Source of the DNA: Deltaproteobacteria bacterium
GTDB lineage: Bacteria > Desulfobacterota > Desulfomonilia > UBA1062
Direction of reading: 5' to 3'
NCBI GenBank assembly: GCA_015486075.1
Contig: WFSG01000005.1
Location: forward strand, 62,001-126,000
Length of the DNA stretch: 64,000 bases
Shown: positions 21,782-39,439 of the stretch, piece after piece
How the letters are laid out: every line of letters starts with the position of its first letter
How positions within the stretch are numbered: the first letter of the stretch is position 1
Notes under the pieces: model-generated
Databases searched by the model: none
The model's input: only the letters and a program-made list of their open reading frames with translations
What the model was told of the DNA's origin: nothing
Translations under genes and position numbers: made by a program

Positions 21782-22546
21782 TTAAATCAAGGCCCCTCCA
21801 TCGCAGATAATGCAGGTTCCTGTTGTATAAGATGCTGCATCTGAAACAAGATACAAGACGGCACCTGCCATCTCAGGGGGCTCTGCATGCCTTTTCATGG
21901 GTATCCTACTAAGTGCAATGTTGTAGATATCCTTGTTTTGGAAAAGAGCTGATGAGAATTTTGTCTCAGTAAGACCGGGCAGAAGTGCGTTCACGCGTAT
22001 ATTCTTGTCAGCAAGTTCCATGGCATATGCCTTTGTTAGCATTATCAATGCTGCCTTTGTAATAGAGTAAATACCTTGAAGAGGGGCTGGCCTTATACCA
22101 TTTATAGATGCAACGTTAACTATGGAACCTCCTCCTGTTTCTATCATCAGTTTTGCCGCGTATTGGATCATGAAGAACGGGCCCTTGAGGTTGACTTCGT
22201 TGGTCTTGTCCCATATGCCCTCGTCCGCACCTAGCATGTCACCGAAGTAGGGGTTTGTGGCAGCATTGTTTATGAGTATGTCAACTCTGCCAAATCTTTG
22301 CTTTATTTGTTTGAAGAGATTTTCTATCTGGTCCATCTTGCCAACATGGCATGCTATTGCTGTTGCCATGCCGCCAGTATCTTTGATTTTTTTTGCCACC
22401 TTGTCCAATGCATCCTGTTTCCTGCTGGTAAGCACCACATGCGCCCCGTACTCGGCAAGGGTTATGGCTATGGCCTCTCCTATGCCCCTACTTGCTCCCG
22501 TAACTAAAGCTATTTTGCCATCCAGCGAAAAATTGACCATGCCCAT
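21782..22546 (-). CDS. SDR-family oxidoreductase (DHRS4-like)
   Basis: A classical short-chain dehydrogenase of 254 residues. It has the TGASRGIG cofactor loop, the INNAA segment, catalytic Ser in VNVASING and the YSITK pair. The N-N-P-Y-F-G stretch and LPGLTETKFSSALF segment resemble DHRS4-type carbonyl reductases. AAAGGAGG precedes the start by five bases. It lies 40 bases after etfA and is the last gene of the left arm of the catabolic island. By analogy with LvaD of the levulinate pathway it could interconvert a 4-keto and a 4-hydroxy acyl-CoA. That role is inference. Confidence 0.85.
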   Translation of the reverse strand: MGMVNFSLDGKIALVTGASRGIGEAIAITLAEYGAHVVLTSRKQDALDKVAKKIKDTGGMATAIACHVGKMDQIENLFKQIKQRFGRVDILINNAATNPYFGDMLGADEGIWDKTNEVNLKGPFFMIQYAAKLMIETGGGSIVNVASINGIRPAPLQGIYSITKAALIMLTKAYAMELADKNIRVNALLPGLTETKFSSALFQNKDIYNIALSRIPMKRHAEPPEMAGAVLYLVSDAASYTTGTCIICDGGALI

Positions 22547-22586: not shown

Positions 22587-23573
22587 TTACGTTGTGCCCA
22601 CAAAGTTTCTAAATTCCTCCAACAGCACAGGTATAAATGTTGCTAAGTCTTCAACTATACAATAATGAGATACATTAAATATAGCGGCATTTGGATCAAT
22701 GTTGATGGAGACCACGATCTGAGAGTCCTTCATGCCCGAGATGTGCTGGGAAGAGCCTGATATCCCACATGCAATGTATAACCTGGGAGAGACGGTGCGT
22801 CCTGTCATGCCTATCTGGTGCTTGTAACCCAGCCAACCCAGGTCACAGACGGCCTTGGACGCGCCAATGGCTGACTTGTTGAAAATCTTTGCCAGGTCTT
22901 TTACAAGGTGAAGGTTCTCCTCGTTACCGATGCCCCTGCCTGCGGCCACTATGACCTCTGCATCGTCAAGGTTTAGTGTTTCTTCTTCAGCTTCTTTTAC
23001 TGTAATGGTACGTGACGTGGATATACTGGATGGTGCGGCTTTTATGTCTACGTGGCCATTTTCCATCGGGTCTAGTTCCTGGGCCTTCCATGCCCCGGGT
23101 AATATGGTTATGACGCTTTTTTTTAGTTTAGGCATGATCTCGGCCCGTAATTTGCCACCGAACATGGATCTTAAAAAAGAAATCTTTCCGTCTTGGCTTT
23201 TTATGCCTTCAACCGCTGTTATACAAGATGCATCAAGACGGGTGGCAAGGCCTGGCGCTAGGTCGAGACCCATGGCGGTATGTGTCATGCAGATGTATTC
23301 GGGATCAATGCTTTCGAGGTAATACTTCAAGGTAAACTTGTATTGCTCAGCGTTGTAGAATTCAAGCGGTCCGCCTTCTATCCCGACCACGTCGAGGCCG
23401 GTTTTTTTAGAAAGATTCTCTGCCATCTCCTTGATGGATTTTCCAAGTACTATAATGACGGGCTTTGCCTCGGTAAGGTTGGAGAGCTCAAGGGCAAAGG
23501 ATACGGCTTCAAAGGTTGCAGAAACCACGCTTTCCTTGTGATGCTCTGCAATTATTGCTATCTGTTTTTTCAT
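22587..23573 (-). CDS. etfA: Electron transfer flavoprotein alpha subunit
   Basis: The FAD-carrying subunit of ETF, which takes electrons from acyl-CoA dehydrogenase in the cytoplasm. The C-terminal FAD-binding signature runs through VAAGRGIG, then GWLGYKHQIGMTGRTVSPRL, split over neighbouring segments, and GMKDSQIVVSINIDP. The usual GAIQH reads GSSQH here. Its length of 328 residues is typical. It lies eight bases after etfB. The downstream SDR and the divergent acyl-CoA dehydrogenase operon identify the likely electron donor. Confidence 0.94.
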   Translation of the reverse strand: MKKQIAIIAEHHKESVVSATFEAVSFALELSNLTEAKPVIIVLGKSIKEMAENLSKKTGLDVVGIEGGPLEFYNAEQYKFTLKYYLESIDPEYICMTHTAMGLDLAPGLATRLDASCITAVEGIKSQDGKISFLRSMFGGKLRAEIMPKLKKSVITILPGAWKAQELDPMENGHVDIKAAPSSISTSRTITVKEAEEETLNLDDAEVIVAAGRGIGNEENLHLVKDLAKIFNKSAIGASKAVCDLGWLGYKHQIGMTGRTVSPRLYIACGISGSSQHISGMKDSQIVVSINIDPNAAIFNVSHYCIVEDLATFIPVLLEEFRNFVGTT

Positions 23574-23581
23574 GTAACACC

Positions 23582-24358
23582 TTATATCAACGATTTTTCG
23601 TGAAGTATACTGACCAATTCCTTTGCCTTTTCACGCTGAGAACCCTCTATGAATGTACCCCTTGATGAAACCTCGGGGTAAGAAAGCGCTACAAGATGCT
23701 CTCTTTTTGCTGGTATATTCATGGCCGTTGCCTCAATGGTGAGGATCTGAGCTTTTCTTGCCCTTAAGACATTGCTAAGAGAAGGATATCTGGGGATATT
23801 GATGCCGGATTGAATGGTGAGTACTGCGGGCAACTGCAGATTAAGACATTCCCTCTTCCCACCTTCAATCTCCCTTTCGACGTAGACCTCTTTCTTATCC
23901 TCTCTTATCTCTTGGTGCATGACCAGGGTTGCGCACGGACGGTTTAGAATTTCAGCTATAACTTGGCCCACCTGGGAATTCATGTCATCTTCTGACATGG
24001 CCCCTGTTAGGATTAGCGCATAGTTATTTGTCTGGACATAGGATGCTATGGTTGAAGCCACCTCGAAGGGGGTTATGAAGAAATCTCCCTCGGTGAGTAT
24101 GTGTATGCCTTTCTCGGCTCCCATTTCCATAGCCTTTCTCACGGTAGAACTCACCCTTGGCGGTCCAACTGATATTGCATCAACACTTACATCATTGAGT
24201 GTTTCTTTTATCCTCAAGGCCTCTTCTATTGCAAATTCATCATAGCGGTTCATCCTGAAAGGGGATGAATCTCCATATTTTACCCACTTACCGGACTCAT
24301 CAATCGTAACAGGTGCCTGACTGTCAATAACCTGCTTTACACATATAAGGATCTTCAT
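23582..24358 (-). CDS. etfB: Electron transfer flavoprotein beta subunit
   Basis: The AMP-binding (or second-flavin) subunit of ETF. It starts with MKILICVKQVIDS and has the family segments DEFAIEEALRIKE and NSQVGQVIAEILNRP. ATG 24358 is preferred over the in-frame GTG at 24364 because AAGGG lies nine bases upstream of it. It is the first gene of the left transcript, driven by the minus-strand promoter next to the TetR-type operator. Sequence alone does not settle whether this ETF bifurcates electrons. Confidence 0.94.
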   Translation of the reverse strand: MKILICVKQVIDSQAPVTIDESGKWVKYGDSSPFRMNRYDEFAIEEALRIKETLNDVSVDAISVGPPRVSSTVRKAMEMGAEKGIHILTEGDFFITPFEVASTIASYVQTNNYALILTGAMSEDDMNSQVGQVIAEILNRPCATLVMHQEIREDKKEVYVEREIEGGKRECLNLQLPAVLTIQSGINIPRYPSLSNVLRARKAQILTIEATAMNIPAKREHLVALSYPEVSSRGTFIEGSQREKAKELVSILHEKSLI

Positions 24359-24384
24359 GCCCACAACCCTTTCTTTTTATAAAC

Positions 24385-24413
24385 TTTATAAAACAAAACC
24401 ATAACTACCTCAA
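24385..24413 (-). promoter_or_regulatory. Sigma70-like promoter for etfB-etfA-SDR
   Basis: Reading the minus strand, TTGAGG (24408-24413) and TATAAA (24385-24390) are separated by exactly 17 bases. The predicted start is near 24378, about 20 bases before the etfB ATG. The -35 box lies four bases from the TetR-type palindrome. Confidence 0.6.
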
Positions 24414-24416: not shown

Positions 24417-24440
24417 AAAAACGAACGCTCGCTCGTTTTT
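24417..24440. promoter_or_regulatory. TetR-type operator palindrome between divergent promoters
   Basis: A 24-base imperfect palindrome with ten of twelve symmetric base pairs. The core is ACGAACGCTCGCTCGT with A-tract and T-tract flanks. It resembles the short ACGA/TCGT-armed operators of TetR regulators of fatty-acid breakdown. It lies between the -35 boxes of both divergent promoters, so one dimer pair could repress both. The TetR gene at 26665 is in the right-hand operon and is the obvious candidate ligand. Binding is inferred. Confidence 0.65.
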
Positions 24441-24442: not shown

Positions 24443-24471
24443 TTGACATAACCTTATTTACTTCTTATGAT
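24443..24471 (+). promoter_or_regulatory. Strong sigma70 promoter for the phosphatase-ACAD-TetR operon
   Basis: TTGACA (24443-24448), a perfect -35 box, and TATGAT (24466-24471) are separated by 17 bases. Transcription should start near 24478, inside the first heptamer repeat. The TetR-type palindrome ends two bases before the -35 box. Confidence 0.7.
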
Positions 24472-24475: not shown

Positions 24476-24531
24476 GTACAAGGTACAAGGTACAAGGTAC
24501 AAGGTACAAGGTACAAGGTACAAGGTACAAG
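24476..24531 (+). repeat. Tandem heptamer GTACAAG, 8 perfect copies
   Basis: Eight uninterrupted copies of GTACAAG fill 56 bases, preceded by a partial unit. The array starts at the predicted transcription start of the right-hand operon and so would form the first 50 or so bases of its leader. It is non-coding. A seven-base unit in such an array can change copy number by slippage, which would alter leader length without moving the promoter boxes. Confidence 0.95.
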
Positions 24532-24708
24532 GAGTTATAGGCTCTTGGCAAGGAGCTGGTTAGTAAGGTTAAGTACGTAGGGGCAAGGATTCAGGCATCG
24601 GTGGTGGGTGTAGATTCAGGGCTAGTATAGTTCCTTTAGACGTTAAAGAGTATAGTCCGGGGGGTCGGTTGTTTTCCTTATAGAGTCTATCTTGTTAAGG
24701 GGTTTTTC

Positions 24709-25419
24709 ATGGGAGTGATATTTCTTGTGAGGCATGGCCAGGCATCCTTTGGAGAAGAGAACTATGACATGCTCTCGGAGACTGGTATCCTGCAGTCCAG
24801 GATCCTAGGCGATTACCTTGCTGAAACTGGCCTTAAGATAGATGTCGTGTACTCGGGAAAGATGGAACGGCAGAAGATGACGGCTAACGAAGCCATCAAG
24901 AGTTATAAGAGACATGGCAAGGAGGTCCCGGATCCAGTGATAATAGATGACCTCGGGGAATACGATTTTAGAGGCGTACTATTGTCTCAGGTCCCTGACA
25001 TGCTGAAAGAGGACCCATCTCTTAAAAGAGATATGGACTTAATCTATTCAGACATGAAGGCCTTTCAACGGATTTTTGAAGGTGCAATGCTAAGATGGGT
25101 CTCTGGTAGGTATAACAAAGAAGGTGTGGAGACATGGGAAGATTTTGCAGAGAGGTCAGTCAACGCAGTACTGGGCATTATTGCTGAGCAAGGTAGGGGG
25201 AAAAACATATTCGTGTTCACCTCAGGAGGGATTATTGCAGCCACTATGCAAAAGGCGCTGTCATTATCTAACGAGGCCACCATGAGAATTAACTGGCAGC
25301 TTATAAATTCGTCCATAACTAGATTTATGTACAGGGATGAAATAATCACCCTTGCTGGGTTTAATTGCATACCACACCTGGAATTGAGAAAAGACAAAAC
25401 ATTGCTGACTTACCGTTAG
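24709..25419 (+). CDS. Histidine phosphatase family protein
   Basis: A 236-residue phosphatase of the phosphoglycerate-mutase-like branch. The catalytic Arg-His-Gly triad is at residues 8-10 in FLVRHGQASF. The C-terminal VFTSGGI segment differs from the common second-His motif (usually V-x-H-G), so the second catalytic His is not where I would expect it. It opens the right-hand operon, 16 bases before the acyl-CoA dehydrogenase. Placement next to a phosphotransferase and an ACAD suggests it acts on phosphorylated acyl intermediates or proofreads them. That role is inferred. Confidence 0.8.
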   Translation: MGVIFLVRHGQASFGEENYDMLSETGILQSRILGDYLAETGLKIDVVYSGKMERQKMTANEAIKSYKRHGKEVPDPVIIDDLGEYDFRGVLLSQVPDMLKEDPSLKRDMDLIYSDMKAFQRIFEGAMLRWVSGRYNKEGVETWEDFAERSVNAVLGIIAEQGRGKNIFVFTSGGIIAATMQKALSLSNEATMRINWQLINSSITRFMYRDEIITLAGFNCIPHLELRKDKTLLTYR

Positions 25420-25435
25420 CTATAAGGAGGATCTT

Positions 25436-26644
25436 ATGGATTTCGAGGTACCGGAAAAGATTAAGGTGATAACCAGTATGATAGATGAGTTCGTCGACAA
25501 GGAACTTATTCCTCTCGAGCCAGAGTTCCTGACGCATGACTTCAGGTCTATGGTCCCTGTGCTTGAGGAGAAAAGGAAAATGGTAAAGCAGATGGAGTTG
25601 TGGGCGCCGAACCATCCAAAGGAGTACGGTGGCATGGGGCTGAACCTCGTAGAGCACGCTTTTGTATCAGAATCTCTAGGGAGGACTCCCATAGGCCACT
25701 ACGTGTTCGGCTGCCAGGCCCCGGATGCAGGAAACGCCGAAATACTCTACCTTCATGGCACAGAGGAGCAGAAGGAAAAGTATCTCAGGCCTCTTATCGA
25801 GGGAAAGATAAGGAGTTGCTTCTCGATGACCGAGGTTGACATGCCTGGATCAAACCCGGTAATGATGAATACAACTGCTGTAAAAGATGGCGATGACTAT
25901 GTAATAAACGGTCACAAGTGGTATACCAGCTCGTCGGACGGTGCAGCCTTTGCCATTGTCATGGCTGTAACCAACCCGGATGCACCGAAATACCTTCAGG
26001 CAAGCATGATCATCGTGCCTTGCGATACCCCGGGATTCAATCAGGTAAGGACGATCCCTGTTATGGGAGAGCCTGGAACAGACTACGCGGGTCACGGTGA
26101 AATTCTTTATCAATCGTGCCGTGTACCTCAGAAAAACCTTTTAGGACCAGAGGGGCAGGGGTTTGTGATTGCACAACAGAGGCTTGGACCGGGCAGGATT
26201 CATCACTGCATGAGATGGCTAGGTATATGCAGAAGGAGCTTTGACCTTATGTGCAAGAGGGCGCAGGAGAGAATAATGACACCTGATGGTAAGACCTTGG
26301 CCACAAAGCAGATTATACAGGCATGGATTGCAGAGTCTGCTGCAGATATTCTGGCTGCGCGACTGATGACCATTAGTACAGCGTGGAAGATCGAGAAGCT
26401 GGGAGTAAAGGAGGCCAGGCAAGATATCTCTCTGATAAAATTCTACGTGGCAAATGTCATGCAGAAGGTTGTTGACAGGGCGCTCCAGGTTTATGGTGGT
26501 ATGGGTATGACAGACGATATCATTATACCGTTTTTCTATCGCCACGAGCGTGCCGCTAGGATATACGATGGTGCCGACGAGGTCCATAAGATGTCTGTAT
26601 CAAGGCGGATCTTGAGGGAATACGAGGGCCGCGAGGTTAAATAG
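25436..26644 (+). CDS. Acyl-CoA dehydrogenase, ACAD10/11 type
   Basis: A FAD enzyme of 402 residues. Three segments closely recall the dehydrogenase part of mammalian ACAD10/11 (compared from memory): GNAEILYLHGTEEQKEKYL, IRSCFSMTE, and GPGRIHHCMRWLG at 251-263. The catalytic-base region reads YDGADEVH (377-384), with Asp378 where straight-chain enzymes have Glu; ACAD11 also has DG-DEVH. A good ribosome site (AAGGAGG) precedes ATG. ACAD10/11 and the bacterial LvaC handle 4-phospho-acyl-CoA, removing phosphate to give an enoyl-CoA. I infer the same here because the matching kinase is two genes downstream. EtfAB is the likely electron acceptor if it also dehydrogenates. Confidence 0.88.
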   Translation: MDFEVPEKIKVITSMIDEFVDKELIPLEPEFLTHDFRSMVPVLEEKRKMVKQMELWAPNHPKEYGGMGLNLVEHAFVSESLGRTPIGHYVFGCQAPDAGNAEILYLHGTEEQKEKYLRPLIEGKIRSCFSMTEVDMPGSNPVMMNTTAVKDGDDYVINGHKWYTSSSDGAAFAIVMAVTNPDAPKYLQASMIIVPCDTPGFNQVRTIPVMGEPGTDYAGHGEILYQSCRVPQKNLLGPEGQGFVIAQQRLGPGRIHHCMRWLGICRRSFDLMCKRAQERIMTPDGKTLATKQIIQAWIAESAADILAARLMTISTAWKIEKLGVKEARQDISLIKFYVANVMQKVVDRALQVYGGMGMTDDIIIPFFYRHERAARIYDGADEVHKMSVSRRILREYEGREVK

Positions 26645-26664
26645 GGTTTCCGGGGTAAGGTGCA

Positions 26665-27387
26665 TTGACATTTGACGCATTTCAAGGGCTTGTAAACATC
26701 TCTAGTGAAGACATCTGGAGGGATTTTTACCGTAACAACAGGGATAAGATCAAGGTCAAGAAGGAAGACGTTGCGGTAAAAAACCTTGTAAAGATATCTA
26801 GTGCTGCCTTATCCATAAGTAATAGAAAAGGTTTCCCTCTCATGACGCTAAGGGATCTAAGCGAGGAGTCGGGCCTGAGCATGGGGGCACTTTACTCTTA
26901 TTTCTCGAGCAAGGATGATCTATTGAACATGATACAGCAGCAGAGGATGGCAGCCATAGTAAAGGTCTTTTCTGCCCACCTTTCAGGTATTGGTGAACCT
27001 CTGGAGAAGTTAAGGACTGCCATTCAGATTCACCTGTATCTCAGCGAGGTGATGCAACCATGGTTTTATTTCTCTTACATGGAGGCAAAAAATCTCAGCA
27101 AGGAAGACAGGAGAAAGGCAATCGAGGCAGAGGTTTTCACAGAGCGCATATTCATAGACATCATTGAGCAGGGGCAGAAAGATAGAATATTCGTGGACGT
27201 TGACTCTATGACCACGGCTGCTATTATCAAGGCATTGCTCCAGGACTGGTATCTGAAGAGATGGAAATATGAAAGTAGGGGGGTCTCTGTAGAAGAATAT
27301 TCCAGAATTGTTATTGATTTTGTTGAATCGTATCTTTTGCCTCAAGATAATTTGAAGCAGGAGGAAAAAAATGGATCTAATGGATAA
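26665..27387 (+). CDS. TetR family transcriptional regulator
   Basis: A 240-residue repressor-type protein. The helix-turn-helix lies at about residues 45-95, after an unusually long N-terminal extension of about 40 residues. LRDLSEESGLSMGALYSYF is the recognition region. The C-terminal part is a ligand-binding bundle, probably for an acyl-CoA given the neighbours. The start is TTG at 26665, with GGGGTAAGG just upstream; no better in-frame start was seen. It overlaps the kinase gene by 17 bases. It most likely controls the palindrome at 24417-24440 and hence both arms of the island. Confidence 0.88.
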   Translation: MTFDAFQGLVNISSEDIWRDFYRNNRDKIKVKKEDVAVKNLVKISSAALSISNRKGFPLMTLRDLSEESGLSMGALYSYFSSKDDLLNMIQQQRMAAIVKVFSAHLSGIGEPLEKLRTAIQIHLYLSEVMQPWFYFSYMEAKNLSKEDRRKAIEAEVFTERIFIDIIEQGQKDRIFVDVDSMTTAAIIKALLQDWYLKRWKYESRGVSVEEYSRIVIDFVESYLLPQDNLKQEEKNGSNG

Positions 27388-28438
27388 GCCGAAGAAGCCA
27401 AGACAAGGCGAGGAACTTGATGCAAAGGCCGTTGAAAGCTTTCTGAAAGATAGTATTCCAGGACTCAAGGGAAGTATTACTATACAGCAATTTCCCAGTG
27501 GATTTTCGAACCTAACCTACATGCTGAGTGTGGGGGACAGGAATTTTGTTCTTAGGAGACCGCCCTTTGGAAGGAAGGCAAAATCTGCGCATGACATGGG
27601 TAGAGAATATCGTATATTAAATGCATTGAAAGACGTTTTTCCTTATGCACCTAGACCGGTTGCGTATACTGAAGACACGTCCATAATTGGTTGCCCTTTT
27701 TACGTGATGGAACGAATAGAGGGCATTATACTAAGAAAAGACCTTCCTGAAGGGTTAAGTTTCAGCCCGGGTGAGGCAAGGCAGCTGTGCGAGAATCTCC
27801 TGGATGTTCAATGCGAGCTCCATTCCATTGATTATAAAAAAGTTGGTCTTGAAACATTCGGCAAGCCAGAAGGCTACGTAAAGAGACAGGTAGAGGGTTG
27901 GTCTGAACGTTACAGGGCAGCAAAGACACCAGATGCCCCTGATTTTGAGGATGTTATGAAATGGCTCCATGAAAAAATGCCGTCTGAGTTTAGGAAACCT
28001 TGCATAATACATAATGATTTCAAGCTAGATAATGTTGTACTCGACCCAAAGAATCCCCTGAAAATCATAGGGGTGCTTGACTGGGAAATGGCAACCATAG
28101 GGGATCCCATCATGGATCTTGGCAACTCTCTTGCTTACTGGGTGCAGGCAGACGATCCACCTAATGTCCAGGCAATACGCATGATGCCGACAAACATACC
28201 CGGTGCGCTCACCAGGGATGAAATGGTGGCTAGGTATGCTGAAAAGACCGGTATTTCCATAGATAACTTTGATTTCTACCTATGCTTTGGCCTATTTCGA
28301 CTTGCAGTCATTGCACAGCAGATCTATTATCGTTATTATCATGGACAGACAAAGGACGAAAGGTTCGCACTCCTCATAATCGCTGTCAAGGTATTAGAGG
28401 AATCCTCGTTAAGGATTATAAACAACTCTCATTTGTAA
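27371..28438 (+). CDS. APH-type phosphotransferase, ACAD10/11 kinase-domain type
   Basis: A 355-residue kinase of the aminoglycoside-phosphotransferase fold. The catalytic loop is HNDFKLDN (His214, Asp216, Asn221) and the metal-binding Asp237 lies in VLDWEMATIGDP. GCPFYVMERIEG and ELHSIDYKKVGLETFG match the N-terminal kinase region of ACAD10/11. The bacterial LvaA of levulinate catabolism is a known relative that phosphorylates the 4-hydroxyl of 4-hydroxyacyl-CoA. An antibiotic-resistance role is unlikely given the genes around it. GAGG six bases upstream supports ATG 27371. Confidence 0.87.
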   Translation: MDLMDKPKKPRQGEELDAKAVESFLKDSIPGLKGSITIQQFPSGFSNLTYMLSVGDRNFVLRRPPFGRKAKSAHDMGREYRILNALKDVFPYAPRPVAYTEDTSIIGCPFYVMERIEGIILRKDLPEGLSFSPGEARQLCENLLDVQCELHSIDYKKVGLETFGKPEGYVKRQVEGWSERYRAAKTPDAPDFEDVMKWLHEKMPSEFRKPCIIHNDFKLDNVVLDPKNPLKIIGVLDWEMATIGDPIMDLGNSLAYWVQADDPPNVQAIRMMPTNIPGALTRDEMVARYAEKTGISIDNFDFYLCFGLFRLAVIAQQIYYRYYHGQTKDERFALLIIAVKVLEESSLRIINNSHL

Positions 28439-28519
28439 AGTGGCTCGTAGTGCTGGATACTTTTAAAAAAGTACCAAGCAATGGATAAATTGACCAAGTA
28501 AGAGAAAAGGAGGATGCTT

Positions 28520-29539
28520 ATGAATGATTTAAAGTTTAGTCCTGATGTCTGTGCCAAGTGCGATACATATGACTGCCTCATGAAGTGCCAATACATGGAC
28601 TTTGATCTTGAGAGTGCAAAGGAGGAGAGGTGGAAGCTTATAAGGGGTGAAGACACTCGTATTCTTTATGATTGCGTGACGTGCTATGCATGCGAGGAAT
28701 ATTGTCCTTACAATAATCATCCATTTTACCTTATCGTGGAGAGGCAAGAGGAAAAGGGTATCCATCCTGTTCCAAAACCTATTGAGAAGTCCCAGATCAG
28801 GGCCATGGCACCAAGAGGAGAAATAACACCCATGAAGGTACATGCACCTGTTATAAACATGTGCTATTTTCCCATGATGCTAGGCACAATAAGGGGAAAG
28901 CTCTTTGAAGGGGCCTCTGCCATAGTCGGTAGCGATATATTCTGTAACCTTATGTACCTGCATTTTGCCAGGAATTCGGTTATAAAGGAGAGGCTTCCAA
29001 GGATGATAGAGAACATCCAGAAGAACTATCTGGAGCCAAGTGGAGTAAAGGAACTCATCTGTTATCATGACGAATGCTACGGGACGTATACGTCCTGGGC
29101 CCCTGCCTTTGATATTAAGGTGCCTTTTAAGCCTATACATCTATTTGAGTACCTGTATAACAGGTTACTTGAATTGAAAACTGAGATAAAGCCTTTGAAC
29201 TTAAAGGTCGCTTACCAGAGACCATGCTCAAACCGATTGAGTCCAGAGATCGATCACTTTGTGGATGATATATTTTCGCTTATAGGTGTGGAGAGGGTGG
29301 AGAGAAAGTATGACCATGAAAATGCCCTTTGCTGTGGAGGTGTGTTCGAAGCGCAGCAAAAGTTCGATCTGATGGAACAGAATCAAACACGTAACGTGGA
29401 TGACATGAAGGAACACGGTGCTACCCACTGTGTATTCAACTGTCCTTTCTGTTTCTGGACGCTATCCGACTTGGTAAGCCAGAAGGGTATGACACCAATA
29501 ATGATGTCTGATCTTTGCCATCAGGCCTTGGGCGAATAA
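28520..29539 (+). CDS. CCG-domain Fe-S oxidoreductase (HdrD/GlcF-like), first copy
   Basis: A cytoplasmic Fe-S protein of 339 residues. An N-terminal ferredoxin-like part has an unusual cluster CAKCDTYDCLMKC (C-x2-C-x4-C-x3-C) and a standard one in CVTCYACEEYCPY. Cys-rich CCG-type motifs follow: CYHDECYG, ALCCGG and FNCPFCF. ATG 28520 is chosen because AAAGGAGG abuts the upstream ATG at 28514. It precedes the FAD oxidase by 22 bases. The likely job is electron transfer with the next two proteins. The redox partner is unknown. Confidence 0.85.
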   Translation: MNDLKFSPDVCAKCDTYDCLMKCQYMDFDLESAKEERWKLIRGEDTRILYDCVTCYACEEYCPYNNHPFYLIVERQEEKGIHPVPKPIEKSQIRAMAPRGEITPMKVHAPVINMCYFPMMLGTIRGKLFEGASAIVGSDIFCNLMYLHFARNSVIKERLPRMIENIQKNYLEPSGVKELICYHDECYGTYTSWAPAFDIKVPFKPIHLFEYLYNRLLELKTEIKPLNLKVAYQRPCSNRLSPEIDHFVDDIFSLIGVERVERKYDHENALCCGGVFEAQQKFDLMEQNQTRNVDDMKEHGATHCVFNCPFCFWTLSDLVSQKGMTPIMMSDLCHQALGE

Positions 29540-29561
29540 ACTCTGAGGAGGTGATATAGCT

Positions 29562-30947
29562 ATGGATAGAATCTTTGAACGTCTGTCTGATATAGTCGGC
29601 AGCGATTACGTTTCAAACGCGGCTGAGGAACGTTTTATATACTCTAGGGATCCGGGTGTCCAGAGGCCGCATGAGCCTGATTATGTGGTGCTTCCGAACA
29701 CTACTGAAGAAGTCCAGAAGATAGTGCTGCTTGCAAACGAGGAAAAGATACCTGTTGTACCTTTGGGTGGGGGTCTGGTCCTGTCCGGGCTCAGCATCCC
29801 GTTAAAGGGAGGTATAGTACTAGACATGAAGAGGATGAACCGTATTATAGAGGTGAATGAGAAGAGCCATTATGCTGTTGTAGAGGCAGGCACGGCCATG
29901 GGCATGCTCTCTGCATATCTCGCCAAGCATTATCCCACCCTGAAAAATTCCTTACCGGATGCCCCCCCTGTTGCAACTGTTGCAGGTAATGTCATGATAC
30001 ACGGATCGGGCCATCTCTCGCAGAGCGAAGGTGGTTTTCATTCGGAGATGGTTACGGGTCTAGAGGTTGTACTCCCCACAGGCAAGGTAGTAAAGCTTGG
30101 TTCATGTTCAACTGTGCCTTACTGGTTTTCTAGGGCACCGCTGCCTGACTTGGCAGGGCTATTCTTGGGCTGGAATGGTACAACCGGCATTATAACCAAG
30201 GTGGGGATAAAGTTATATCCAAGACCACTTTTGAACGATGGGCTCATGTTCTTGACAGAGGACGTTGATACTGTACCTGATATAATGTTCCGCATTGTAA
30301 ACACGGAGATGTGCGAGGACCTGACATTCTTTATAACACCCAAGCCAGCCATGTTCGAAGGCTTCCAGATGACTATCATCTCCATCACGGCGAATTCTGA
30401 CAAGGAGATGAGGCTAAAGAAGGAGATAATAAGAGATACGTTGAAGGACTACTATGAAAGCAAGGAAGCAGGGTTCGTACCCATTCCCAAGGAAATGAAG
30501 GCCTTTCTGCTTGAGGCGCCTCAGAAGAACCTGAGTGCCTTTGCAGACGTGAGGAAAGGCGGAGGGTTTGAATACGTGGGGGCCATTATACCGGTTGAAA
30601 AGATACCTGATGCTTATAGGGCTGGGCTTGAAATATCGGCAAGAAATGGCATTACCTATTCTCTGGGAGGGCGGATGATAGGCAGAGGGCACTCCTTCAT
30701 GTTTTACTTTGCGTACCCGTTTAACAGGGCGGACGAAGATGACATGAACAGGGTAAGACAAGCCCTGGATGATACAAACCATGCTGCTCTGAAGATGGGG
30801 GGGATACCGTGGAAGGCCGAGGTAAGTGGCCAGCAATTAATATTAAAGCAGATGTGGCCTGCTACCTACGAGTTTATGCAGGAAATAAGGGGATTGCTTG
30901 ATCCGAATGGTATCATGAATCCCGGGAACTGGGAGGTGAATCCATGA
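29562..30947 (+). CDS. FAD-binding oxidoreductase (GlcD/lactate dehydrogenase type)
   Basis: A VAO-family flavoprotein of 461 residues. The FAD-binding region is VPLGGGLVLSGLSIPLKGG, in which the usual GGGTGLSGG loop is altered to GGGLVLSG. FLGWNGTTGIITKVGIKLYP and the C-terminal PNGIMNPGNWE are family signatures. Relatives oxidise D-lactate, glycolate or other 2-hydroxy acids. It lies between two CCG-type Fe-S proteins and overlaps the second by four bases, so the three probably form one complex. The altered loop suggests a substrate that is not simple lactate. Confidence 0.87.
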   Translation: MDRIFERLSDIVGSDYVSNAAEERFIYSRDPGVQRPHEPDYVVLPNTTEEVQKIVLLANEEKIPVVPLGGGLVLSGLSIPLKGGIVLDMKRMNRIIEVNEKSHYAVVEAGTAMGMLSAYLAKHYPTLKNSLPDAPPVATVAGNVMIHGSGHLSQSEGGFHSEMVTGLEVVLPTGKVVKLGSCSTVPYWFSRAPLPDLAGLFLGWNGTTGIITKVGIKLYPRPLLNDGLMFLTEDVDTVPDIMFRIVNTEMCEDLTFFITPKPAMFEGFQMTIISITANSDKEMRLKKEIIRDTLKDYYESKEAGFVPIPKEMKAFLLEAPQKNLSAFADVRKGGGFEYVGAIIPVEKIPDAYRAGLEISARNGITYSLGGRMIGRGHSFMFYFAYPFNRADEDDMNRVRQALDDTNHAALKMGGIPWKAEVSGQQLILKQMWPATYEFMQEIRGLLDPNGIMNPGNWEVNP

Positions 30948-32104
30948 AAAAGGAATATGCCGATATCATTCACAGGTGCTTCAGGTGCGGTTGGTGCAAG
31001 TTACCCCTCAATTTCAAGGATTTCAACTGCCCGTCATATCTAAAGTACCGTTTCGAGTCTTTTTCGTCTGGCGGCAGGCTTTGGCTTATAAGGGCTTGGA
31101 TGAACGGGGAAATACAGACTAGCGAACGCTTTGCAAAGATCCTTTTTTCATGTGTTACGTGCAAGAATTGTGTGGAGGCATGCGCCATGCCAAAGATAAG
31201 GCAATACCTGGTGGACATGGTCATAGCCGCAAGGGAAGACATGGTGGAGCAGGGTGTGATACCTCCAGGTGTGAGGGACTACCTTAAGGCAGTAAGCATA
31301 AGTGGTAACGCGTACAAGATGCCACAGGAGCAAAGGGCTATCTGGGCAGATGGGCTTGATATTCCCCTGTACTCGGGTCAGGAATACCTTTTCTACGTGG
31401 GTGATGTTGGCTCCTACGACGAGGTTGGCAAGAAGATGGCGCGCTCGGTTGCCATGCTTCTAAAGAAGGCGGATATATCGTTTGGCATACTGGCATCAGA
31501 TGAGATTACCGATGGTAACGAAGTGAAGACCCTTGGAGAGGCAGGCCTGTTCGAGCAAATTGCATCGCAGAACATAGAGAAATTTAAAGGGCTAGGCGTG
31601 AGAAAAATTATCACGCTCTCGCCGCATGCCTTCAACAGCATGAAGAACGAGTACCCGAAGTTAGGGGGTAATTTTGACGTTTATCACTATACGCAGGTAT
31701 TGAATGCAGCAATCAAAGATATTTCCATGGCAGAGGTAGATTTAAAGGTAACTTACCATGATCCATGTTATCTTGGCAGGTGGAACAACGAGTACTGGGC
31801 ACCGAGGTCGGTCTTGAGGTCTGTGCCTGGCCTTGAGCTCGTAGAGATGGACAGGAACATGCAGAATGCACTTTGTTGTGGAGGTGGAGGAGGCAATTTC
31901 TTCACCGACATACTGGGCACTGGACCGGACAGCTCAAGCAGGGTACGCGTAAAAGAGGCAATTGATACAGGGGCCAGCGTGCTGGCTGTTGCATGTCCCA
32001 TCTGTTACAGGATGCTGAGCGATGCAGTGAAGGCAGAAGGTCTTGAAGATAGAATAGAGGTAAGGGATATTGCAGACATAGTAAATGATGCAGTTGCTGT
32101 TTAG
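30944..32104 (+). CDS. CCG-domain Fe-S oxidoreductase (GlcF/HdrD-like), second copy
   Basis: A 386-residue Fe-S protein. The N-terminal cysteines fall in CFRCGWCKLP and SCVTCKNCVEAC, which suit two Fe-S clusters. The C-terminal half has YHDPCYLGR and the glycine-rich CCGGGGGN, plus a CPICY motif, as in heterodisulfide-reductase-like subunits. It is translationally coupled to the FAD subunit. The set resembles a lactate- or glycolate-oxidase module connected to quinone or ferredoxin. Direction and acceptor cannot be told from sequence. Confidence 0.86.
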   Translation: MKKEYADIIHRCFRCGWCKLPLNFKDFNCPSYLKYRFESFSSGGRLWLIRAWMNGEIQTSERFAKILFSCVTCKNCVEACAMPKIRQYLVDMVIAAREDMVEQGVIPPGVRDYLKAVSISGNAYKMPQEQRAIWADGLDIPLYSGQEYLFYVGDVGSYDEVGKKMARSVAMLLKKADISFGILASDEITDGNEVKTLGEAGLFEQIASQNIEKFKGLGVRKIITLSPHAFNSMKNEYPKLGGNFDVYHYTQVLNAAIKDISMAEVDLKVTYHDPCYLGRWNNEYWAPRSVLRSVPGLELVEMDRNMQNALCCGGGGGNFFTDILGTGPDSSSRVRVKEAIDTGASVLAVACPICYRMLSDAVKAEGLEDRIEVRDIADIVNDAVAV

Positions 32105-32189
32105 CCCTAAAGGATTCTGAAAACAGGGCATAAAATATAAATAATTTATTGTCATGTAATTAAGTCAAAAAAAAGAAGGAGGTAGTAGT

Positions 32190-32924
32190 ATGTCTAAGAA
32201 GTTATCCATAAGGCCTTTACAGCTGGTAAGGATGCAAGGCCCAGGGGCTATAATGACCTACCTTACCAACTTTGATGGCAAGGGTGAGGCAGGCGGTTAC
32301 ATGTTTCTTATAGAAGGCACGGACAAAAATATCATCGTTGATACATCTGGCAGTGCAGATTCTCTCAAGATGGCAGGCTTCGAAGCAGAGCAGGTGTCCA
32401 CACCTGAAGAGGCATTGAAAAACGTGGGGCTCAGGCCTGAAGACATTGACATGGTAATATTTACACACCTCCATTTTGACCACGTTGAATATGCCACTAG
32501 ATTCACCAATGCCACTTTTATTTGCCAGGCAGATGAATTAAGGGAGGCTCTCAACCCGCATCCCGGTCTTGATAAGCTCCTGTACTGGCCAAACCTGTAC
32601 AGTGACATAAAGTTCCGGACAGTGACTGGTGATCTTGATATATACGATGGAATAAGGGTTATGCTTACCCCTGGGCATACTCCCGGGGGGCAGACCGTGC
32701 TGGTGGAGACAGAGGATGGTATTGCAGCCATAACAGGTATGTGCTCGGTGCTAGACAACTTTTACCCCCCAGAAGATTCGGGTGCTATGATGGAGGTGAT
32801 ATTACCTGGGATCCACGAGGACGTAAGGCTTATATACGATAGCATGATGAAGATAAAGCATACAGCGGATACAATCATTCCTTTGCATGATATCAAGTGG
32901 AGCACGGTTGAGAGAATACCGTGA
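32190..32924 (+). CDS. MBL-fold metallohydrolase (lactonase-like)
   Basis: A 244-residue metallo-beta-lactamase-fold hydrolase. The dinuclear metal motif is THLHFDHVEY (H-x-H-x-D-H), followed by TPGHTPGGQTVLV and a C-terminal IIPLHD. The layout resembles N-acyl-homoserine lactonases and related hydrolases. Next to the acyl-CoA ligase and amidohydrolase, it could open a lactone to the hydroxy acid that the ligase then activates. That substrate is inferred. GAAGGAGG precedes the start. Confidence 0.82.
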   Translation: MSKKLSIRPLQLVRMQGPGAIMTYLTNFDGKGEAGGYMFLIEGTDKNIIVDTSGSADSLKMAGFEAEQVSTPEEALKNVGLRPEDIDMVIFTHLHFDHVEYATRFTNATFICQADELREALNPHPGLDKLLYWPNLYSDIKFRTVTGDLDIYDGIRVMLTPGHTPGGQTVLVETEDGIAAITGMCSVLDNFYPPEDSGAMMEVILPGIHEDVRLIYDSMMKIKHTADTIIPLHDIKWSTVERIP

Positions 32925-32981
32925 TTGTCCGCGAGAACGATATCTCAAGAAGAGAGGTAATATAAAGAAAGGAGGTCTAAA

Positions 32982-34604
32982 ATGACAGGCAAGAAGGTGG
33001 TAATAGAGACGGTCCCCATGGATCAGCTGGAGTTTCTCAAGGGGAAACGTACGGATTTTGAAAGCGTATCCGAGATGATAGTTGCAAGAGCAAACGAGAT
33101 ACCTGATAAACCCTACGTTTTATTCTATGACGATGTAATAACCTATGCTCAGACCAATGAAGGGGCAAACAGGGTAGCCAATTATCTCAAGGCAAAGGGT
33201 ATCAAAAAGGGGGACGTGGTATCCATTCTAGTGATGAATTCGCCGGAGATTTACTACATCATGTTTGGGATACAGAAGCTTGGTGCAATAGCAGGTTCTA
33301 TTAATTTTATGTTGAAGGGCCCAGAAATTGCCTATCTGTTGGATGATTCAAAGCCTAGGATAGTCTTTGTTGGTAGCGAGTTTATGCAGGAATTTGCCCG
33401 TGGCTACGAGCAGGCATCTCATAAGCCCGGTGTCGTTGAGGTGGTAACAGGGGTAGAGCATGGTATAGATCTAAAGCAGGAAAAATTGTCCGATATACTT
33501 GCTAGTTATCCAGCTGATGAGGCCATTGTTGAGCAGAAGGGATCTGATCCGTTCCTTCTGCTGTATTCCTCGGGGACAACGGGAAGGCCAAAGGGTATAC
33601 TACTTTCCAACAAAGGACAGCTTTCTGTATGTCGTGCCATGGCAGGTATAGGCCTTGTTGAGGATGGAGATGTAATGCTTCTGCTGTTGCCCATGTTTCA
33701 CACCAACCCCATATGCGTGTGGACGTACCCGATCGCTTACTGCGGCCAGACCGTGTGCATAAGAAAGACCTTTTCACCGACCGACTTTTGGCCATCGATC
33801 ACGGATTACGGTGTTACCATACTTATGGGAGTACCTGCCATGTACAACTATGTCTTTTATGCTATTGATGCTAGCACCATCGACAGATCAAAGCTCAAAC
33901 TAAGATTCGCCTTTTGTGGGGCAGCACCCCTGTCTGTTGAGTTGATAAGAGGTTTTAAGGAGAAGTTCAATGTTGAGATAATAGAAGGCTATGGTCTTAC
34001 AGAGGCAACAGGTGTGTCCACTGTTAATCCACCACTTGGAAAGAGGAAGCCGGGTTCCATCGGAGTGGCCTTGCCTGAACAGGAAATCAAGATCATGGAT
34101 GACGATAACAACGAGATGCCGGTAGGCGAGAAAGGTGAGATCTGTATAAAGGGCGACGCAGTGATGCTTGGTTACCTGAACCAGCCGGAAGCCACAAAGG
34201 AGACCATAAAGGATGGTTGGCTCCATACCGGCGACATGGCATACATGGATGAAGAGGGATTCATGTACATCATTGACAGGAAGAAAGATATGATAAACCG
34301 CGGTGGCGAGAACATCTACCCGAGGGAGGTCGAAATAGCCCTTGAGTCCAATCCAAAGGTTAGGGAGGTGGCTGTTATAGGAACGCCAGACGAGGCACTA
34401 GGAGAAAGGGTGAAGGCGTTTATAATACCGACAGAGCCTGGATCTCTTACAGAGGAAGAGGTGAAAGAATACCTGAAAGACAAGCTTGCAAAGTACAAAA
34501 TACCAGAGGTGGTTGAATTCGTGGAGGATCTTCCCAGGACCATGACAGGTAAGGTTATGAAAAAGGAACTAAGGAAAATGGAACAGGAGAAACAAAAAAA
34601 GTAA
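32982..34604 (+). CDS. AMP-binding acyl-CoA ligase
   Basis: An adenylate-forming enzyme of 540 residues that activates a carboxylic acid to its acyl-CoA using ATP and CoA. Core motifs are YSSGTTGRPKG, EGYGLTEATG, DGWLHTGDMAYMDEEGF, and the C-terminal MTGKVMKKELRK with the adenylation lysine. AAGGAGGTC precedes ATG. It is the only acyl-CoA-forming enzyme in the island. The carboxylate substrate cannot be read; medium-chain, branched, hydroxy or aromatic acids are all possible. Confidence 0.92.
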   Translation: MTGKKVVIETVPMDQLEFLKGKRTDFESVSEMIVARANEIPDKPYVLFYDDVITYAQTNEGANRVANYLKAKGIKKGDVVSILVMNSPEIYYIMFGIQKLGAIAGSINFMLKGPEIAYLLDDSKPRIVFVGSEFMQEFARGYEQASHKPGVVEVVTGVEHGIDLKQEKLSDILASYPADEAIVEQKGSDPFLLLYSSGTTGRPKGILLSNKGQLSVCRAMAGIGLVEDGDVMLLLLPMFHTNPICVWTYPIAYCGQTVCIRKTFSPTDFWPSITDYGVTILMGVPAMYNYVFYAIDASTIDRSKLKLRFAFCGAAPLSVELIRGFKEKFNVEIIEGYGLTEATGVSTVNPPLGKRKPGSIGVALPEQEIKIMDDDNNEMPVGEKGEICIKGDAVMLGYLNQPEATKETIKDGWLHTGDMAYMDEEGFMYIIDRKKDMINRGGENIYPREVEIALESNPKVREVAVIGTPDEALGERVKAFIIPTEPGSLTEEEVKEYLKDKLAKYKIPEVVEFVEDLPRTMTGKVMKKELRKMEQEKQKK

Positions 34605-34635: not shown

Positions 34636-35571
34636 ATGATTATAGATGCACATTGTCACGTGTGGACGTGGGATATTGTCCCGGATAGTTACTGGGATGA
34701 ACTGGCAGAGATCGTCATAGATTTTTTCAGGAAGAATAATCTCGGATCACCCACTGTGGACGAGGTGAAGAAAAACGTTATGGATCCCATGATGGATCCC
34801 GATGGCTCCAAGTTAGTTGCAAACATGGATGCATCCGGTGTTGATATGGCTTTTATAATGGCATTGGACTGGGGCTATGGCATTGGAGAAGCAAGGAAAT
34901 CAGTGGACGAGATAAACCAGTTCTACGGATCTATCGCAAAAAAATACCCGGACAGGGTTGTTGCCTTCGCAGGGGTTGATCCTAGGCGTCCAGGTGCTGT
35001 TGAGATCCTTGACCGTGCAGTTAACGACTATGGCTGCCGAGGTCTCAAGTATCACCCCACGTCTGGTTTTTATCCTGACGGAGAGGATTCTTACAAGGTA
35101 TTGGAAAAGGCACAGGAGCTAGGTATACCCTTGCTCAGCCACATGGGCCCGATCTCTAAGCCACTCAAGAGCAAGTATGCAAGACCAATATACCTGGATA
35201 CCATTGTAAGCGATTTTCCAAAGCTGAAGGTAATAGGCGCACACATGGCCTTCTGCTGGTGGCGCGAGTTCGTGAACATCATTGCTGCAAAGGCAACCAC
35301 CCTTTATGCTGACTTCTCGGGTCACCAGGTAACGGCAAAGAGGAATTTCTCGGAGTTCTGCCATATGATGAGGGATGCCTTTGACGAGGCAACTGCATAC
35401 AAATTTCTGTGGGGCACAGATAATCCTATTCTAGAGGCTGTAATTCCCATGAAAGACTGGTTACAGATGATAAAAGATCTTCCCGAGAATGCACCCGACG
35501 GGATTAAGTTTACCAAGGAAGAGATAGATGCTGTGCTAGGTGAAAATGCGGCAAAGATAATAGAGCGCTGA
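34636..35571 (+). CDS. Amidohydrolase-2 family protein (ACMSD/lactonase-like)
   Basis: A TIM-barrel metal-dependent hydrolase or decarboxylase of 311 residues. The metal-binding H-x-H lies in IIDAHCHVW, GLKYHP carries the next His, LLSHMG another, and WGTDNP the active-site Asp. Members include aminocarboxymuconate decarboxylase, resorcylate decarboxylase and several lactonases. AAGGAGGAGG precedes ATG. In this operon a lactone-opening or decarboxylation step is plausible. The family is clear but the reaction is not. Confidence 0.85.
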   Translation: MIIDAHCHVWTWDIVPDSYWDELAEIVIDFFRKNNLGSPTVDEVKKNVMDPMMDPDGSKLVANMDASGVDMAFIMALDWGYGIGEARKSVDEINQFYGSIAKKYPDRVVAFAGVDPRRPGAVEILDRAVNDYGCRGLKYHPTSGFYPDGEDSYKVLEKAQELGIPLLSHMGPISKPLKSKYARPIYLDTIVSDFPKLKVIGAHMAFCWWREFVNIIAAKATTLYADFSGHQVTAKRNFSEFCHMMRDAFDEATAYKFLWGTDNPILEAVIPMKDWLQMIKDLPENAPDGIKFTKEEIDAVLGENAAKIIER

Positions 35572-35707: not shown

Positions 35708-36217
35708 ATGGGCGATTCCAGGGAAGACAGGCTAAAAAAGGCCTTTGATTGTGCAAAGGCCTATGAGATGAAGTGTACGGGTTGTGCCCAGACAGCCATG
35801 GCAGGGATATTTGATGCATTGGGCACTTGGAATGATGACGTGTTTAAATGTGCAAGCGGACTTGCCGATGGTCTCGGACTTACAGGGGATGGCTCCTGCG
35901 GTGCGCTTGTTGGCTCTTCCCTGGTAATCGGATATATGTTCGGCAGGGAGAAAAAGGACTTCGAGGATGTGCTAAAGCCCATGCAGACTTATCTCATGGT
36001 AAAGGATCTGCACGACAGGTTTGTTGCCAAGTATGGCTCCTCCAGGTGTTACGATATCCAAAAAAGGCTTATGGGGAGGACTTATGACCTTTACAAAAAG
36101 GAAGATCTCAAAGCTGCGTTCAAATCCGGGATGGTAGATGTATGCTCCACTCTGGTAGGCACGTGCGCAAGCATGGCGGTGGATATCATACTAGACGTGC
36201 TTGAGAACAAAGAATAG
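35708..36217 (+). CDS. C_GCAxxG_C_C family protein
   Basis: A 169-residue protein of the C_GCAxxG_C_C family (possible redox-active or metal-binding, function unknown). The family motif appears as CTGCAQTAMAG near the N terminus, with further Cys in KCASGL, GSCGAL, SSRCYD, VCSTL and GTCAS. CATGGAGG lies before ATG. Members are often next to oxidoreductases in anaerobes. It lies just upstream of a DUF169 gene, again a frequent pairing in anaerobes by my recollection. No function is assigned. Confidence 0.8.
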   Translation: MGDSREDRLKKAFDCAKAYEMKCTGCAQTAMAGIFDALGTWNDDVFKCASGLADGLGLTGDGSCGALVGSSLVIGYMFGREKKDFEDVLKPMQTYLMVKDLHDRFVAKYGSSRCYDIQKRLMGRTYDLYKKEDLKAAFKSGMVDVCSTLVGTCASMAVDIILDVLENKE

Positions 36218-36240
36218 AGAACCTGGGATAAGGAGGAATC

Positions 36241-37020
36241 ATGCCAGAGATAGGCTGGAAAGACGTAGAAGATAGGTTAAATAGGCTGCTTCATCTGAAC
36301 ACATATCCCCTGGGTATAAGGTTCCTTGGAAAGGAAGAAGGCTTTCCAGCAAAGACAAGAAAGCCGAGAGACTTTGGGATCAAGGTGGCGGTGTGCCAGG
36401 CAGAGACCCTTGCTAGGCGTTGGGGCTGGGCGATTGGACTTACATGCGATGACATTGGCTGTGTTCCTGCAATACTGGGGTTTGGCTGCAAGACGCTGGA
36501 CAGTATTGATCCGCTGATAGACTTTTTTATGAGCATGTCGTACTTTGAAACAAGGGATGCTGCAATAAAGACTATAGATAGATTTAAGATCATGGATATA
36601 GGCTCATGGGACAAGATGTACATTTCTCCCCTATCTAAAACAGAGCTTGATCCTGAAGTGATTGTAATCTACGGAGATCCGGCCCAGATGTCCAGGCTTG
36701 CCCAGGGGTACATCTACAGGCATGGAGGCGTTGTAATATCGGAGACGAACCTTGGGTTTAGCTGTACCAATGAGATTATATGGCCACTGAAGGATGGACG
36801 AGCATACCTTGTTCACCCGGGCAGGGGGGAAAGGGTAGTAGGTGTATGCCAAGACAACGAGATGGCCTTCTCCATGCCTGCATCTCAGATAGAAGGCCTT
36901 CTGGCCGGGCTAGAGGCAACCCACAAGGCAGGTACTCGCTACCCTATACAAAGCTATGCAATGTACGAGGCCATAAAACTACCACAATTCCAAGAGCTTG
37001 AGAATAAATTTAAGGACTGA
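36241..37020 (+). CDS. DUF169 domain protein
   Basis: A 259-residue member of the DUF169 family, uncharacterised. It starts with a segment resembling [12 protein letters not shown], and has conserved-looking [14 protein letters not shown] and [13 protein letters not shown] stretches (Cys at two positions, possibly metal ligands) and [23 protein letters not shown]. It lies 23 bases after the C_GCAxxG_C_C gene with AAGGAGG before ATG. A role in redox or metal biology is only suggested by neighbours. Confidence 0.8.
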
Positions 37021-38168: not shown

Positions 38169-38384
38169 ATGGCAGCTAATGGAATGATAAAAATTGACCA
38201 GAACCTATGCAAGGCATGTGAGCTGTGCATCAACGTGTGTCCTGACAATGCGATAAAACTCTCTAGTAGCTTGAATCATAAGGGATATCATCCTGCCGAG
38301 TTTGTTTCCGAGAGATGTAAAGCATGCGCGCTGTGTGCAATCGTGTGCCCAGAAATAGCAATAGAGGTTTACCGTGACAGATAA
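38169..38384 (+). CDS. vorD: Ferredoxin-type delta subunit of 2-oxoacid oxidoreductase
   Basis: A 71-residue protein with two [4Fe-4S] motifs: CKACELCINVCP and CKACALCAIVCP. It is the electron-carrying delta subunit for the following three genes and overlaps the alpha gene by eleven bases. Its size and position fit VorD/KorD. The ribosome site is weak. Confidence 0.88.
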   Translation: MAANGMIKIDQNLCKACELCINVCPDNAIKLSSSLNHKGYHPAEFVSERCKACALCAIVCPEIAIEVYRDR

Positions 38385-39438
38385 GATCTTGATGAAAGGT
38401 ACAAATGCCCTTGGAGAAGCCGCGGTGCAGGCTGGTTGCAGGTGTTACTTTGGCTATCCCATAACACCGCAGAACGAGTTGACAGAATACATGGCAAAAA
38501 GAATGGCCGAGGTGGGAGGAGTCTTTGTCCAGGGCGAGAGCGAGACTGCGTCCATAAATATGGTGCTTGGAGCAGCCGCATCAGGTGTACGAGCTATGAC
38601 GAGTTCTTCTTCGCCAGGTATAAGCTTGAAACAAGAAGGGATTTCTTTTATAGCTGCAGATGAGCTTCCGGCAGTTATTGTTAATATAATGAGGGGAGGG
38701 CCAGGACTGGGTAACATAGCCCCTAGCCAAGGAGACTACTTCCAGGCAACTCGTGGTGGGGGGCATGGTGACTATAGAACACCTGTCTTTGCCCCTGCAT
38801 CAGTACAGGAACTTTACGATATAACCATGCATGCATTCGACGTGGCAGATATTTACAGGACACCGGTCATAATCCTGGGAGATGGCATGCTGGGCCAGAT
38901 AATGGAGCCCATTGTACTCAACGAAAAACCCAAGGTGAAGCTTCCCCCAAAGGATTATATTCTGGATGGTGCAAAGGGAAGGCCGTCAAGGATAATCCGT
39001 TCCCTGATCCTGGATACGCGCGAGATGGAGGCCCATAACTGGAAATTGAAAAGAAAATACGATCTCATGCGTAAGGAACTCCCTATGTGGGAGGAGTTCA
39101 TGACCGATGATGCAAAATTGGTCGTGGTTGCATATGGTACTGCGGCCAGGATAGCAAAGGGCGCAGTAAAGCGATCTAGGAAAGAAGGAATTTCTGTTGG
39201 ACTCTTGAGGCCCATAACGCTGTGGCCATTTCCAGAAGAGGCCATTAAGGCCGTCGCCAAAAACGCCAGGGTGTTTCTTGTATTTGAGATGAACACTGGG
39301 CAGATGGTTGACGATGTGAAGCTGGCTCTCGAAGACAACTCAAGATGCGTTTTCTATGGCAGGCCAGGAGGAGAGGTGCCTTCTCCTATGGAGATATCAA
39401 GGATCATTGGTCGCCACTGGGTTCAAAAGGAGCTCTAG
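38374..39438 (+). CDS. vorB: 2-oxoacid:ferredoxin oxidoreductase alpha subunit (VorB/KorA)
   Basis: The pyrimidine-binding subunit of a CoA-dependent 2-oxoacid:ferredoxin oxidoreductase (354 residues). The hallmark YPITPQNELTEYMA lies near the N terminus, followed by GESETASINMVLGAAASG. The GTG start at 38374 is placed after a GAGG site. The complex turns branched-chain 2-oxo acids (Vor) or 2-oxoglutarate (Kor) into acyl-CoA and CO2, reducing ferredoxin. The IlvE neighbour favours Vor. Confidence 0.9.
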   Translation: MTDKILMKGTNALGEAAVQAGCRCYFGYPITPQNELTEYMAKRMAEVGGVFVQGESETASINMVLGAAASGVRAMTSSSSPGISLKQEGISFIAADELPAVIVNIMRGGPGLGNIAPSQGDYFQATRGGGHGDYRTPVFAPASVQELYDITMHAFDVADIYRTPVIILGDGMLGQIMEPIVLNEKPKVKLPPKDYILDGAKGRPSRIIRSLILDTREMEAHNWKLKRKYDLMRKELPMWEEFMTDDAKLVVVAYGTAARIAKGAVKRSRKEGISVGLLRPITLWPFPEEAIKAVAKNARVFLVFEMNTGQMVDDVKLALEDNSRCVFYGRPGGEVPSPMEISRIIGRHWVQKEL

Positions 39439-39439
39439 G

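Follow-up and report, generated by a model that had tools for sequence, protein, structure and literature searches.

How could 4-hydroxy fatty acids be brought into beta-oxidation by an anaerobic bacterium, and why would the genes for doing so lie beside those of an electron carrier? In mammals the kinase and dehydrogenase of ACAD10 and ACAD11 let such acids enter beta-oxidation (PMC12440821, PMC11342911). The question is raised by a locus in a 64,000-nucleotide stretch of contig WFSG01000005.1 from a deltaproteobacterium (the window, to whose first letter all positions refer). We find that this bacterium carries a split kinase and acyl-CoA dehydrogenase (ACAD) of the same type, placed, under what is probably one conserved switch, together with a private electron transfer flavoprotein (ETF). 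We take the host to be anaerobic because its genome contains no COX1 and because pyruvate-type 2-oxoacid:ferredoxin oxidoreductase genes are present at 38374-40745.

A split kinase and dehydrogenase related to ACAD11

The dehydrogenase (25436-26644, plus strand) and the kinase (27371-28438, plus strand) are separate open reading frames (ORFs), not one fused polypeptide as in eukaryotic ACAD10/11. The best PDB matches of the dehydrogenase are human and mouse ACAD11 (2wbi, 5.8e-81; 8v3u, 1.8e-77), a Mycobacterium abscessus homologue is also among its best solved relatives, far above the ordinary ACADs, and the next match outside the ACAD11 group is 1ukw (3.1e-51). The top structure matches of its AlphaFold model (predicted local distance difference test, pLDDT, 82.7) are 4hr3 and ACAD11 (8v3u, 2wbi), and the protein is 40% identical to the human ACAD11 region. 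In a tree that includes 14 other ACADs of the same genome it falls within a 26-row clade together with human ACAD11 (support 100/100), outside the straight-chain acyl-CoA dehydrogenases, and the other ACADs of this clade mostly have an adjoining kinase gene. The first-pass annotation had proposed a split ACAD10/11 pair from motifs and had suggested a tree as the check; both the placement and the motifs bear it out, since GPGRIHHCMR and DGxDEVH in the dehydrogenase and HNDFKLDN in the kinase are real and align with ACAD11.

The residues of the active site agree with this placement. R249, H257, R260 and D378 of the dehydrogenase correspond to R626, H634, R637 and D753 of mouse ACAD11, which have been linked to 4-phosphate binding and catalysis (PMC12440821) and whose alteration in ACAD10/11 disrupts phosphate elimination (PMC12440821, PMC11342911). 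The last of these, the catalytic aspartate, replaces a glutamate. These residues (the RRHRD signature) occur in every member of the ACAD11 clade and are conserved across 71 of the 72 related loci; of the 14 further ACADs sampled in this genome, none combines all four. The dehydrogenase also has a clade-specific loop, TEVDMPGSNPV in place of TEPxxASSDAT, with N140 present in 71 of 72 loci; in ACADs this loop contacts the FAD.

The kinase has the APH fold, its catalytic HxD (HND216) and DWE motifs are intact, and its best PDB matches are 9o56, followed by the ACAD11 kinase domain and 3dxp. A dehydrogenase of the clade lies just upstream of the kinase in 66 of the 67 related loci with enough flanking sequence. 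Given the clade of the split ACAD, its residue set and this linkage, the best reading is that a 4-hydroxyacyl-CoA would be phosphorylated and the phosphate then eliminated, the kinase being a putative 4-hydroxyacyl-CoA kinase and the ACAD a putative 4-phosphoacyl-CoA phosphate-eliminating enzyme. For the choice of the 4-hydroxyl we would rely on the ACAD pocket and on the published work.

The divergent arm and its electron transfer flavoprotein

What lies across the intergenic gap from this operon? On the minus strand we find EtfB (23582-24364, its start possibly the ATG near 24358), EtfA (22587-23573, FAD-binding domain intact) and, third, a short-chain dehydrogenase/reductase (SDR; 21782-22546). 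EtfAB contains the ETF and ETF_alpha FAD-binding domains and, in EtfB, the recognition loop, PRYPSLSNVLRARK. Together the three genes make up the oppositely transcribed half of one regulatory unit shared with the kinase operon, an arrangement that the first-pass annotation had missed.

EtfAB is a dedicated ETF, distinct from the housekeeping ETF. We considered that it might be the housekeeping pair and rejected this, as the genome has just two ETF pairs and the EtfB tree separates them: a branch with 97/92 support sets human ETF, W3A1 and the housekeeping EtfBs apart from all kinase-linked EtfBs, although, the tree being unrooted, it does not establish the latter as a single clade. The conserved recognition loop reads PRYPSLSN in the kinase-linked EtfBs as against PRYASLPG. 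Among 42 genomes of the class, 31 have the kinase, and 28 of these have the dedicated EtfB; none of the 11 that lack the kinase does (Fisher, 8.5e-8). The genomes are related, and the counts therefore lack phylogenetic independence. The three kinase genomes without it are drafts of 81-86% completeness, and in one of the 31 the sole kinase gene is truncated and lies at the end of a contig.

The switch is suggested by a TetR-family (FadR-like) regulator gene (26665-27387, plus strand), absent from the first-pass annotation, which follows the ACAD gene and overlaps the start of the kinase gene. In the gap between etfB and the histidine phosphatase gene that opens the operon there is a 20-bp palindrome, AAACGAACGCTCGCTCGTTT (24419-24438), whose core has no other exact match in the 2.3-Mb genome. 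Of 44 ETF-linked loci, 29 have this palindrome ahead of the first gene, where 0.012 would be expected per 800-bp stretch, an enrichment that is partly by construction because the pattern was derived from the same regions. It was found in 33 of 48 loci with the TetR gene and in 2 of 17 without (p 5e-5), and there are few matches in other parts of the loci. Abutting it on the operon side is a sigma-70-like promoter, TTGACA-17-TATGAT (24443-24471, plus strand); a TTGACA-like -35 box lies just beyond the palindrome on this side in all 29 loci, with a background of 0.058. A mirror promoter for etfBA-SDR, TTGAGG-17-TATAAA (24385-24413, minus strand), was read by eye and is weak alone (9 of 12 positions); its -35 box matches at 4 of 6 positions in the window, and a box of at least 5 of 6 is present on the etf side in 19 of the 29 ETF-linked loci, against the same background. 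We conclude that the palindrome is probably the operator of the operon-encoded TetR. The Bacillus FadR-type operator, TGAATGAMTANTCATTCA, has no match in the window. The 5' leader of the kinase operon contains eight exact tandem copies of GTACAAG (24476-24532), starting at about the predicted transcription start.

The order etfA-etfB, diverging from hisPhos-ACAD-TetR-kinase, recurs in Desulfobacterota, Spirochaetota, Syntrophomonas, SAR324 and others, often with SDR and 3-hydroxyacyl-CoA dehydrogenase (HADH) genes 3' of it. In the loci with long flanks, though some of the loci compared are fragments, EtfB is present in 33 of 49, the histidine phosphatase in 34 of 49 and TetR in 37 of 49, with SDR (24 of 53) and HADH (20 of 53) among the downstream genes. 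Kinases are duplicated in two clusters (L036, L098), and an additional ACAD belonging to the clade is present in two others (L055, L075).

Neighbouring genes

All genes named in the first-pass annotation were recovered at the coordinates it gave and with the expected Pfam domains: His_Phos_1, ACAD N/M/C, APH, CCG, FAD_binding_4 with FAD-oxidase_C, CCG with Fer4, Lactamase_B, AMP-binding and Amidohydro_2. The first of them is a histidine phosphatase of branch 1 (24709-25419, plus strand), whose fold is confirmed on an AF2 model (pLDDT 94). The nucleophilic histidine of its RHG motif and the pocket arginine (Arg54) are invariant, and a serine (Ser172) aligns to the second catalytic histidine of PDB phosphatases, a comparison made by profile because phmmer against PDB gave no match. 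The serine is found in 46 of 46 of these phosphatases and also in three proteobacterial plasmid relatives. By analogy with the HAD domain of ACAD10 (PMC11342911), the phosphatase may remove stray 4-phospho intermediates, or it may regulate. Searches of the literature returned nothing direct on the serine-variant phosphatase, on 9o56, or on anaerobic 4-hydroxyvalerate or ETF work.

The SDR, which the first-pass annotation had drawn into its route, does belong to the module: orthologues 57-71% identical adjoin the kinase in many loci, where they follow it. Together with HADH, its presence fits an enoyl-CoA product that would enter beta-oxidation. Downstream of the kinase, on the plus strand, lie a CCG-domain Fe-S protein (28514-29539), common to only some relatives, a GlcD-like FAD-linked oxidase or dehydrogenase (29562-30947) and a second, HdrD/GlcF-like CCG-domain Fe-S protein (30944-32104). 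Both D-lactate dehydrogenase and vanillyl-alcohol/eugenol oxidases are matched by the GlcD-like protein, with LctD (7qh2) among its PDB matches. The Fe-S modules had been put forward, together with EtfAB, as an unusual electron outlet. For the Fe-S part the case is weak, because the CCG-GlcD-CCG trio occurs in only 6 of 53 loci; for EtfAB the support is stronger than that annotation knew, yet it is at odds with the redox-neutral mechanism described in the literature.

Three further genes follow on the plus strand: a metallo-beta-lactamase (MBL)-fold hydrolase (32190-32924), lactonase-like by weak match only, an acyl-CoA ligase (32982-34604), which in two other loci (L021, L106) lies directly 3' of the kinase, and an Amidohydro_2 protein (34636-35571). 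The MBL orthologue occurs only in a locus of the genus (L019) and in no cluster outside it, lactonase models score the protein far below their curated cut-offs, and no orthologue of the amidohydrolase was found in the other clusters compared. The lactone or levulinate route drawn in the first-pass annotation is not supported here. A haloarchaeal plasmid carries a gene annotated to the N-acyl homoserine lactonase family (L135:2739-3533) near a full-signature ACAD with no kinase nearby. The operon is followed by genes for a C_GCAxxG_C_C redox-active protein and a DUF169 protein (35708-37020).

Mechanism, alternatives and known systems

How might these parts work together? The present analysis establishes homology, residues, linkage, co-occurrence and the operator palindrome, while every enzyme activity, the 4-position, the ETF partnership, the binding of TetR and what the phosphatase, SDR and Fe-S genes contribute are inferred. 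The CoA ligase would make the thioester and the APH-fold kinase would phosphorylate its 4-hydroxyl; Asp378 of the ACAD would then abstract the alpha proton, with hydride passing to FAD, after which the phosphate, held by R249, H257 and R260, would be lost and the hydride returned to give the 2-enoyl-CoA. EtfAB would re-oxidise the ACAD when the internal return of hydride fails or an oxidised intermediate is released. From its single operator, which lies between two promoters set back to back, TetR would repress the two arms until released by an acyl-CoA ligand. We lean, though not strongly, towards this whole reading, of an inducible module through which 4-hydroxyacyl-CoAs enter beta-oxidation, with EtfAB as electron partner of the ACAD and TetR as its switch.

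Several observations weigh against it. The ACAD10/11 reaction is redox-neutral and needs no electron acceptor in vitro (PMC12440821, PMC11342911), so that known chemistry does not require an ETF and a private, co-regulated one in anaerobes is an unexplained variant. About one third of the related loci lack an adjacent ETF, as do all 11 plasmid comparator loci, which come mostly from aerobes as judged by taxonomy, and the relatedness of the genomes tempers the co-occurrence count. The kinase, moreover, shares only about 33% identity with the kinase domain of mouse ACAD11 and 25% with the kinase of an lva-like Stutzerimonas operon, so that its exact substrate could differ. More generally, we tentatively entertain, with belief short of an even balance, that the ACAD11-type enzyme of anaerobes is a true ETF-linked oxidoreductase, in which either the elimination of phosphate is oxidative or a private ETF is needed to keep a rebound cycle active, and that the redox-neutral, acceptor-free mechanism is incomplete.

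Could the chemistry then be a net oxidation, with 2,4-dienoyl-CoA released and two electrons passed to EtfAB in each turnover? A dedicated and co-regulated ETF would suit it, as would the clade-specific change in the FAD-contacting loop, and a transient 2,4-dienoyl-CoA with FADH2 has already been postulated (PMC11342911). We nevertheless consider it unlikely, as the closest studied enzymes are redox-neutral and we recognised no dedicated 2,4-dienoyl-CoA reductase among the cluster genes. It is doubtful, too, that the kinase and ACAD work without the ETF and that EtfAB, only co-regulated with them, serves a different dehydrogenase of the pathway, either the GlcD-like protein or an ACAD of beta-oxidation encoded elsewhere. 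Relatives of GlcD can pair with ETF, LctD (7qh2) being one, and the studied ACAD10/11 enzymes need no acceptor; but the ETF tracks the kinase and ACAD across genomes, the window holds no other ACAD, and the GlcD trio is much rarer than EtfB (6 of 53 against 33 of 49 loci). We judged GlcD an unlikely main partner because of this rarity among ETF-linked loci.

The substrate could instead be another hydroxylated CoA ester, substituted at a different position or with a side chain that is cyclic or aromatic, on which the same sequence of phosphorylation and elimination would act. The kinase is 47-55% identical to a bacterial subfamily (9o56 and proteins of Azospirillum and Pseudoalteromonas), well above its identity to the ACAD11 kinase, and the neighbours are unusual, with an amidohydrolase and a GlcD resembling vanillyl-alcohol oxidase and D-lactate dehydrogenase. 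Against this the ACAD phosphate pocket is exactly as in ACAD11, and we give the idea a low probability. Least probable is the levulinate or gamma-valerolactone operon of the first-pass annotation, with lactone hydrolysis by the MBL protein as its first step. That protein does resemble lactonase models and a Stutzerimonas plasmid does have an lva-like operon that combines a kinase, a histidine phosphatase, an ACAD and an SDR. Against the route speak the low scores of the MBL protein, the finding of neither MBL nor amidohydrolase in clusters outside the genus, and the lack among the operon ORFs of an LvaB-like gene, a sigma-54 regulator and a transporter. The histidine phosphatase of the Stutzerimonas operon (L170:5832-9940) is without the TSGG motif of the other phosphatases.

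If the reading that we favour, an inducible module for 4-hydroxyacyl-CoAs, is right, many uncultured members of Desulfobacterota, Spirochaetota and other groups would gain an entry route for 4-hydroxy acids. The locus also offers a candidate operator and, in the phosphatase, a candidate safety valve. The conserved, co-regulated, dedicated ETF beside a bacterial enzyme in anaerobes opens a direct experiment.

Each known system shares part of this arrangement. Mammalian ACAD10/11 have the same pairing of kinase and ACAD, the catalytic aspartate and the equivalents of R626, H634 and R637, whereas here there are two separate genes in a bacterial anaerobe, no HAD domain, a dedicated co-regulated ETF and the TEVDMPGSNPV loop. 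Operons of the lva type contain genes for an LvaB-like small protein, a sigma-54 regulator and a transporter, and the Stutzerimonas operon served as a further comparator. The Pseudomonas putida lva operon (LvaA/LvaC/LvaD/LvaE) likewise has a split kinase and ACAD with SDR and CoA ligase nearby, while the present locus has TetR instead of LvaR, adds ETF and Fe-S genes, and has no LvaB-like gene or transporter. Plasmid clusters of Azospirillum, Pseudoalteromonas and Ideonella share the ACAD, kinase, serine-variant histidine phosphatase and SDR but have a LysR regulator and no ETF within the 7-8 kb examined. Finally, the ETF domains and recognition loop of the ETF-linked acyl-CoA dehydrogenase systems (housekeeping ETF, Bcd/EtfAB) are kept here, but EtfB stands apart in the tree and its partner would be an ACAD of the phosphate-eliminating type.

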